Source of the DNA: Chryseobacterium sp. T16E-39 | GTDB taxonomy: Bacteria > Bacteroidota > Bacteroidia > Flavobacteriales > Weeksellaceae | Assembly: GCF_002216065.1 (NCBI RefSeq) | Contig: NZ_CP022282.1 | Location: 1,426,001-1,490,000, forward strand | Direction of reading: 5' to 3' | DNA length: 64,000 nucleotides | Translations under genes and position numbers: made by a program | In this document: positions 40,275-41,486 of the stretch, one piece after another | How positions within the stretch are numbered: position 1 is the stretch's first letter | Layout of the letters: each line of letters starts with the position of its first letter | Notes under the pieces: model-generated | Told to the model about the DNA's origin: nothing | Seen by the model: the letters and a program-made list of their open reading frames with translations, nothing else | The model's database searches: none

Positions 40275-41486
40275 CTAGAACAGCGAAAGTTGAATATCGT
40301 TAGGTTTTGTCGGTTTTTTAGCGTCTCCAAAAACCGTTTTACCCCCATACTTCCATGAATTATTTCTTTCCTCTTCAATAACCTGTTGAATATCAAAATC
40401 CGGTGTAAAATCTTTTTCAGTAGTGGTTACGATCTGATGTAACTTATTTAACGTTTTAAGTTTATCAGAATTTCCTAATTTGGATTTTTCGATCCCTTTT
40501 CTAAGAATACTGATACTTTCATCATATACTTTAGTTGGAACCGGAAAAGGATGGCCATCCTTACCTCCATGAGCAAAAGAAAATCTTGCTGGATCCGAAA
40601 ATCTGGATGGCGCTCCGTGAATCACTTCGCTTACCAAAGCCAGAGACTGCATAGTCCTTGGCCCTACTCCCTCTAACATCAGCAGATCTTCAAAATTTTG
40701 TGGCTGCTGTTCGCGGGTAACATATAAGAGAGCCCCTAATCTTTTCAGATCTACATCAGAAGCCCGGACATCATGATGATCAGGAAGGATCAATCTCGAA
40801 AAGTCATTCATTATTTCAGCGGAGTCCGTATGTGAAATTTCCAGAATACCTTTTCTATTTTCTGAAGCATGTGCATCGGTAAGATTAAGAATCTTTCCTC
40901 TGTGAACGCCATTAATCCCCGTGTGCGGTTCTTCAATAAAAGATTTTATATTTCCGGAATGCCAATGATAACGCCTGGCAGTTCCGTCTGATTCATGCAT
41001 TCCCTGCTGAACAACACTCCAGCTTCCATTATCAGCCAGAATAAAATTATGCAGATACAATTGATAACCATCATGGATAGCTGTATTATCCACTTTAGCG
41101 GAGAGTTTACTTGCCTTTACCAGCTCGCTACCGTCCAAGCCCGTTTTATCAGCAATTTCGATTAGTTCTGAAGGTGTATTCCTCGAAAATTTACCTTTCC
41201 CGCCACAAATATAAATTCCAAGAGATTGAGAATTGGGATTAATAGAACGTTTTAAAGCCCCCATAACGGAAGTTGTAATCCCTGATGAATGCCAATCCAT
41301 TCCCATAACAGCTCCAAAACTTTGAAACCAAAACGGGTCTGCTAACCGGCGAAGTACCTCATCTTTACCATAATCCATCAGTATAACTTCAATCATTGAA
41401 AGTCCAAGTATAGACATCCGTTCGTATAACCATGGCGGTACTTTGCCATAGTGTAAAGGTAGATCTGCTGTTCCTGAACGTTTCAT
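40275..41486 (-). CDS. DUF763 protein with HhH motif and C-terminal clamp-binding motif (403 aa)
   Basis: The N-terminus MKRSGTADLPLHYGKVPPWLYERM is the DUF763 signature, followed by LADPFWFQSFGAVMGMDWHSSGITTSVMGALK. Mid-protein a helix-hairpin-helix-like stretch appears, EDLLMLEGVGPRTMQSLALVSEVI (about 273-296), of the type that binds DNA backbones. The last eight residues end QLSLF. This exactly matches the consensus pentapeptide (QL[SD]LF) used by polymerases and repair proteins to dock on the bacterial beta sliding clamp. DUF763 has no established function and is best known in archaea and thermophiles; the features together suggest a replication- or repair-linked DNA enzyme. It stands alone in this region with no operon partner; codon use gives no clear sign of transfer. 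Confidence 0.88.
   Translation of the reverse strand: MKRSGTADLPLHYGKVPPWLYERMSILGLSMIEVILMDYGKDEVLRRLADPFWFQSFGAVMGMDWHSSGITTSVMGALKRSINPNSQSLGIYICGGKGKFSRNTPSELIEIADKTGLDGSELVKASKLSAKVDNTAIHDGYQLYLHNFILADNGSWSVVQQGMHESDGTARRYHWHSGNIKSFIEEPHTGINGVHRGKILNLTDAHASENRKGILEISHTDSAEIMNDFSRLILPDHHDVRASDVDLKRLGALLYVTREQQPQNFEDLLMLEGVGPRTMQSLALVSEVIHGAPSRFSDPARFSFAHGGKDGHPFPVPTKVYDESISILRKGIEKSKLGNSDKLKTLNKLHQIVTTTEKDFTPDFDIQQVIEEERNNSWKYGGKTVFGDAKKPTKPNDIQLSLF

Follow-up and report, generated by a model that had tools for sequence, protein, structure and literature searches.

DUF763 proteins as probable sliding-clamp clients with docking-type peptides matched to their lineage

DUF763 (PF05559) is a protein family of archaea and bacteria, and the member considered here is encoded on the minus strand of a stretch of 64,000 nucleotides of Chryseobacterium sp. 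T16E-39 (contig NZ_CP022282.1, positions 1,426,001 to 1,490,000), hereafter called the window. Comparison of the family's sequences suggests that DUF763 is probably a sliding-clamp client that acts in DNA repair. The parts of this explanation differ in strength: docking to the clamp is very likely, a role in DNA repair is likely, and the chances that the protein itself catalyses lesion processing are about even. In Bacteroidota-type members, the docking peptide is strictly conserved within a drifting tail that is predicted to be disordered. The tail motif is absent where the interdomain linker bears another docking-type peptide, which is PIP-like (PCNA-interacting protein motif) in archaea and of the form QxxLPHL or QxDLF in other bacteria. 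In some lineages, DUF763 has repair genes as neighbours.

The DUF763 gene and its protein

The start codon of the gene lies at 41484-41486 and the stop codon at 40275-40277. Residues 5-316 of the product match positions 1-319 of the 319-position Pfam DUF763 profile (E 4e-133; 444 bits against a gathering score of 35.5). The family presumably corresponds to COG1415, a number that did not occur in the literature searched. The C-terminal residues of the 403-amino-acid protein are ...GGKTVFGDAKKPTKPNDIQLSLF. An earlier note on this DNA had given the coordinates, the DUF763 identity, a C-terminal QLSLF motif and a helix-hairpin-helix (HhH)-like LEGVGPRTM (residues 271-279), all of which are borne out by the open reading frame (ORF) and the Pfam match. 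The features are listed below with the evidence for each, which includes the predicted local distance difference test (pLDDT) of the structure models.

40275..41486, minus strand: DUF763 (PF05559) gene, 403 amino acids (ORF reading and Pfam match)
40278..40292, minus strand: terminal QLSLF, clamp-binding-type motif, residues 399-403; protein end ...AKKPTKPNDIQLSLF (ORF, genome scan and conservation)
40293..40319, minus strand: variable Lys/Pro-rich linker, residues 390-398 (column entropies 2.4-3.6 bits)
40320..40391, minus strand: bacterial C-terminal extension, residues 366-389 (VIEEERNNSWKYGGKTVFG) (sequence comparison)
40617..40694, minus strand: HhH-like segment, residues 265-290 (LEGVGPRTMQSL) (alignment and structure model)
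40875..40937, minus strand: start of the flexible interdomain linker, residues 184-204 (pLDDT < 50 at residues 192-203)
40947..41486, minus strand: N-terminal alpha/beta domain with a putative active site, residues 1-180 (invariant columns in 127 sequences, modelled helices and strands)

The note had also described the protein end as disordered-looking. This agrees with the structure models, both of which predict residues 399-403 with pLDDT < 50. An alignment of 127 archaeal and bacterial DUF763 sequences contains 41 invariant columns, acidic and basic residues included. Those of the N-terminal domain comprise F54, Q55, D64, W65, S67-G69, T72, D133, D139, Y144, H146, W156, Q160-G162 and A170-W175, and in the HhH-like segment G273 and G275 are invariant.

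A conserved terminal motif in Bacteroidota-type members

Homologues were collected from two protein searches (the best 120 of 7998 scored in each), 80 genome-contig loci, genome searches and plasmids. The resulting 372 distinct sequences were grouped by their best BLAST match to reference sequences into 321 Bacteroidota-type, 50 alphaproteobacterial-type and 1 haloarchaeal. The Devosia locus L140, whose gene is split over several frames, was left out of all counts, and the alphaproteobacterial loci L212-L217 served for inspection of context or tail only. The tail motif was defined as Q[LM]x[LIMF][FW] ending at most 4 residues from the protein end.

The motif is present in 312 of the 321 distinct Bacteroidota-type sequences (QLxLF in 299, QL[SD]LF in 183) and in 42 of the 44 clusters obtained when the cores are clustered at 80% identity. 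It forms the exact C-terminus in 300 of the 312, and 12 carry one or two extra residues. Across the 42 motif-bearing clusters, the column entropies, computed on motif-matching rows only, are 0.00, 0.28, 2.58, 0.71 and 0.16 bits, versus 2.4-3.6 bits in the preceding 14 residues. Four of the five positions are nearly fixed, and the third accepts S, K, R and other residues; all six Leu codons are in use for the motif across loci. Close homologues thus keep the motif, a lack of which the earlier note had named as one outcome that would refute its proposal. Conservation throughout bacterial DUF763, for which the note had also asked, holds for the Bacteroidota-type and fails for the alphaproteobacterial-type (0 of 50) and for the genus g190 (0 of 6).

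A maximum-likelihood tree of 84 chosen rows, rooted at its midpoint, requires 2 changes of the tail-motif label, against a shuffled mean of 28.0. Five of the eight tail-less Bacteroidota-type sequences are among these rows, in one clade; the other three and genus g190 are not. On the sequences sampled, the two changes read as one loss and one gain of the motif, the gain at the basal fork of the Bacteroidota group (support 84/75), a reading that depends on the midpoint root.

Docking-type peptides in archaea and other bacteria

The suggestion that archaeal members might end in a PIP-like sequence was not borne out. None of 120 archaeal proteins has such a terminus, and those seen stop soon after the last core helix; they were retrieved with a fragment query and reach about 373 amino acids, and 7 of them, under 330 amino acids, are maybe fragments. 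For proteins up to this length, a terminal PIP box was therefore rejected. Four haloarchaeal plasmid copies of 382-386 amino acids are likewise without a tail, and the one haloarchaeal sequence of the 372-sequence set does not have the tail motif (0 of 1).

The PIP-like sequence of archaea is internal instead. In the linker between the N-terminal and HhH domains (43-75 residues as cut), QxxLxxF occurs in 113 of 117 proteins, the set being the 120 proteins and 4 plasmid copies minus the 7 under 330 amino acids. By cluster, the figures are 56 of 60 (80%) and 30 of 33 (70%). The reversed pattern is found in 0 of 117 linkers, shuffled linkers give a mean of 1.9 and a maximum of 7, and the same expression matches upstream of the linker in 5 of 117. 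Among matching rows only, the entropies at Q, L and F are 0.00, 0.29 and 0.66 bits, and the most frequent form is Q-R-S-L-x-D-F.

Other bacteria carry other peptides. The interdomain linker of alphaproteobacterial-type proteins ends in QxxLP[HF]L in all 50 sequences, where Q, P and the two L are constant and the stretch of linker before them is variable; the linker expression missed 8 of the 50 rows, and this count took all 50. The six genomes of genus g190 (of the class of G329) encode tail-less DUF763 of archaeal length whose linkers all contain Q[GI]DLF (6 of 6). The interdomain linker of the Bacteroidota-type is shorter, and QxxLxxF or QxxLF is found in 0 of 329. Taken across archaea, the alphaproteobacterial-type, g190 and the Bacteroidota-type, these counts indicate that almost all DUF763 proteins examined bear one docking-type peptide, apparently of the kind suited to the clamp found in their domain of life. 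These lineage-matched peptides are the strongest evidence of the analysis.

A separate observation concerns the C-terminal extension, whose pattern ExxxxSxxYGGR[ST]VFG is common to the Bacteroidota-type and the alphaproteobacterial-type and absent from the archaeal DUF763 proteins seen.

Rarity of the motif in the host genome

By chance, about 0.01 C-terminal QL[SD]LF and about 0.08 C-terminal QLxLF would be expected in 4,400 genes, an assumed number; the estimate uses the amino-acid make-up of the window's open frames of at least 200 amino acids. In the host genome, a single contig of 4.87 Mb, there are 56 (41 + 15) DNA matches to Q[LF]x[LF]F codons directly before a stop, and only 3 open frames of at least 100 amino acids end exactly in this pattern. 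These are DUF763 (QLSLF), a radical-SAM putative DNA modification/repair protein of the family TIGR03916 (QLSLF) and a DNA methyltransferase-like protein (QLQLF), an assignment that scores under the curated cut-offs.

The methyltransferase-like protein is a 288-amino-acid open frame of the host genome (locus L152). The TIGR03916 protein is encoded at G000:C1:2417276-2418517 of the same genome (L163:259-1515) and is likely a second clamp client of unassigned function. In a survey of this family, 33 of 118 genomes scored above the cut-off. Among the 30 Bacteroidota loci that were read, 14 have a motif of the same kind by regular expression, and the other 16 mostly have QLxLPGLF-like ends.

Comparable systems and the clamp pocket

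The QLSLF of DUF763 matches the published clamp-binding consensuses QL[S/D]LF or QxxLF (PMC12309361). The PolC protein of B. subtilis likewise ends in QLSLF, and its peptide binds DnaN with a dissociation constant of 3.8 uM (PMC12309361), although PolC is a replicative polymerase unrelated to DUF763. The docking peptide of Hda, QLSLPL (PMC3836487), resembles the QxxLPHL of alphaproteobacterial-type DUF763, but Hda is a DnaA regulator with its docking motif in the N-terminal region. By analogy, the nearest precedent is EndoMS/NucS, a mismatch endonuclease of archaea and bacteria that uses a PIP motif for PCNA in archaea and a C-terminal five-residue motif, [E/K]-[L/Y]-[T/R]-L-F, for DnaN in Actinobacteria (PMC8228993). 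The likeness drawn here is one of docking arrangement; in DUF763, the archaeal motif is internal and only that of Bacteroidota is terminal.

Two further families share an HhH-like segment with DUF763. The TIGR03916 family (rSAM_link_UDG) also has the QLSLF end in this genome, but it consists of radical-SAM proteins, and a profile comparison with DUF763 gave no support. In HhH-GPD glycosylases of the AlkA type, as in DUF763, a conserved Asp (D298 in DUF763) stands about 23 residues after a GVG-type HhH segment, but the profile comparison of DUF763 with the AlkA-like protein of G329 was unsupported (probability 0.1, E 0.41). Pfam gives no HhH-GPD match in the DUF763 protein at E up to 1. For kinship with HhH-GPD proteins, hhalign thus gave no support from this single AlkA-like sequence, and the fold comparison hardly covered residues 235-403.

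The host DnaN was compared at the positions that we take to form the peptide pocket of E. coli DnaN. In an alignment of 25% identity overall, it keeps T172, H175, R176, L177, P242, V247 and M364 and differs at G174, R246 and the VMPMR stretch.

Distribution and genomic neighbourhood

Other genomes of the same genus have a DUF763 match in 35 of 35 cases in one search and in 5 of the 6 listed in another. The phylum sample has the gene in 28 of 395 genomes and 11 of 170 genera, and its distribution is patchy, often on plasmids. In one same-genus genome (G020:C1:1514363-1515297), the gene lies in two overlapping pieces, as from a frameshift, and in Pedobacter terrae (L030), two short open frames just downstream duplicate parts of DUF763, as if from a decayed second copy. 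No relatives were found in phages or in viral contigs searched by peptide patterns, and a phage or virus origin was dropped.

Several neighbours belong to DNA repair. AlkB lies directly upstream of DUF763 on a Rhodopseudomonas plasmid, and in Bosea, a 3-methyladenine glycosylase gene followed by Ku, Ku and LigD is nearby. LigD is about 2.5 kb away in Shinella, UdgX about 3 kb away in Sinorhizobium meliloti, and in G329, an AlkA-like gene is directly upstream. Endonuclease V (EndoV) is directly downstream in Pedobacter boryungensis, and Ogt is convergent with DUF763 at L078. Fpg/Nei-type genes adjoin it in six Chitinophagaceae or similar loci, two of them called by Pfam and the other four by BLAST to one of those. 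Two photolyases lie near it in G119, and a DnaE-type polymerase at L081. Other plasmid contexts that were read have no repair gene nearby or weak candidates only, and no conserved operon was seen in Bacteroidota, where neighbourhoods are mostly genus-specific. The placement at repair sites proposed earlier is supported by these recurrent, though not universal, neighbours and by the HhH-type segment.

Around the archaeal-length DUF763 of genus g190 (L257, L260) lie archease-, RtcB-, PrmC- and D-Tyr-tRNA deacylase-like genes in one run, identified by eye without a family search. This run is perhaps a cassette gained from archaea.

Proposed mechanism and alternative explanations

In the Bacteroidota-type, the flexible QLxLF tail would insert into the peptide pocket of DnaN, and this docking would tether DUF763 to DNA that has just been replicated or made in repair synthesis. 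The backbone of this DNA would be held by the HhH-type segment. The conserved N-terminal domain would carry the activity, most likely a nuclease- or glycosylase-like processing of base or backbone lesions, which is the weakest step of the scheme.

Several observations weigh against a clamp-tethered repair protein. Nine Bacteroidota-type sequences miss the motif: one has H for Q, and eight end earlier and show no clear internal substitute, one of them having QLSLP at residue 26, inside the folded domain. Four of the 117 archaeal linkers are without QxxLxxF. The PCNA-binding consensus is Qxx[I/L]xxFF (PMC9690074), and the archaeal motif is called PIP-like and not canonical because the second aromatic is present in just 3 of the 117. 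The last Leu of the alphaproteobacterial-type QxxLPHL may be structural. Relative to E. coli, the host DnaN replaces G174 by S, R246 by A and VMPMR by MLSMP in the 25%-identity alignment. A repair gene was found by BLAST in the flanks of 17 of 107 DUF763 loci, 16 of them within 3 kb, a count that is no more than suggestive because the queries were picked after the loci had been viewed and many self-hits are included; most loci, this window among them, have no repair neighbour.

The same observations may be explained differently. DUF763 could work on RNA ends or tRNA, its motifs recruiting it elsewhere or being incidental. The g190 run, with its archease- and RtcB-like genes near DUF763 in that one genus, could indicate RNA. 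However, those same copies bear Q[GI]DLF, neighbours of recognised nucleic-acid role are elsewhere mostly those of DNA repair, and the whole archaeal cassette may have been transferred, which makes an RNA function quite improbable. Slightly less probable still is that the tail is kept for another reason, packing on the protein or acting as a stability signal, with a coincidental resemblance to clamp motifs. Its position at the very C-terminus, where degradation signals also sit, would suit this idea, but a free third position, a variable linker length and the tolerance of one or two extra residues suit a docking peptide, as does the low predicted confidence of the last five residues; moreover, the tail-less lineages bear clamp-type motifs elsewhere.

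Clamp docking could also be real and DUF763 a replisome regulator or structural accessory instead of a repair enzyme. This is unlikely, if the most serious of the alternatives, since columns invariant from archaea to bacteria, charged residues included, are typical of an active site, and the patchy, often plasmid-borne distribution and the repair neighbours suit an accessory repair enzyme. A clamp-tethered repair protein accordingly remains the preferred explanation. The balance is somewhat in favour of a broader statement, in which DUF763 is a widespread clamp-worked repair enzyme with a fold unrecognised among solved structures, whose docking peptide was remade on at least three occasions to fit the host clamp. 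The resulting forms would be a PIP-like motif in archaea, the linker motifs QxxLPHL and QxDLF in other bacteria and, relocated to the protein end, QLxLF in Bacteroidota.

Significance

A domain census of 2005 records DUF763 from archaea, thermophiles among them, and from rhizobia and Xanthomonas (PMC554113). It contains the only mention found in a literature search for DUF763 or PF05559, a search that left subscription journals mostly outside its scope; within the same scope, no described link between DUF763 and the clamp was found, in line with the earlier note. DUF763 has no assigned function, and its lineage-matched docking peptides allow its place as a clamp client to be tested directly in both archaea and bacteria. 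It would offer a set of naturally occurring swaps between docking peptides of the PCNA type and the DnaN type, for which NucS is the known precedent. The family is also a candidate for an unrecognised lesion-repair activity, and this extends to thermophilic archaea, Pyrococcus and Sulfolobus among them, where the census lists it (PMC554113).
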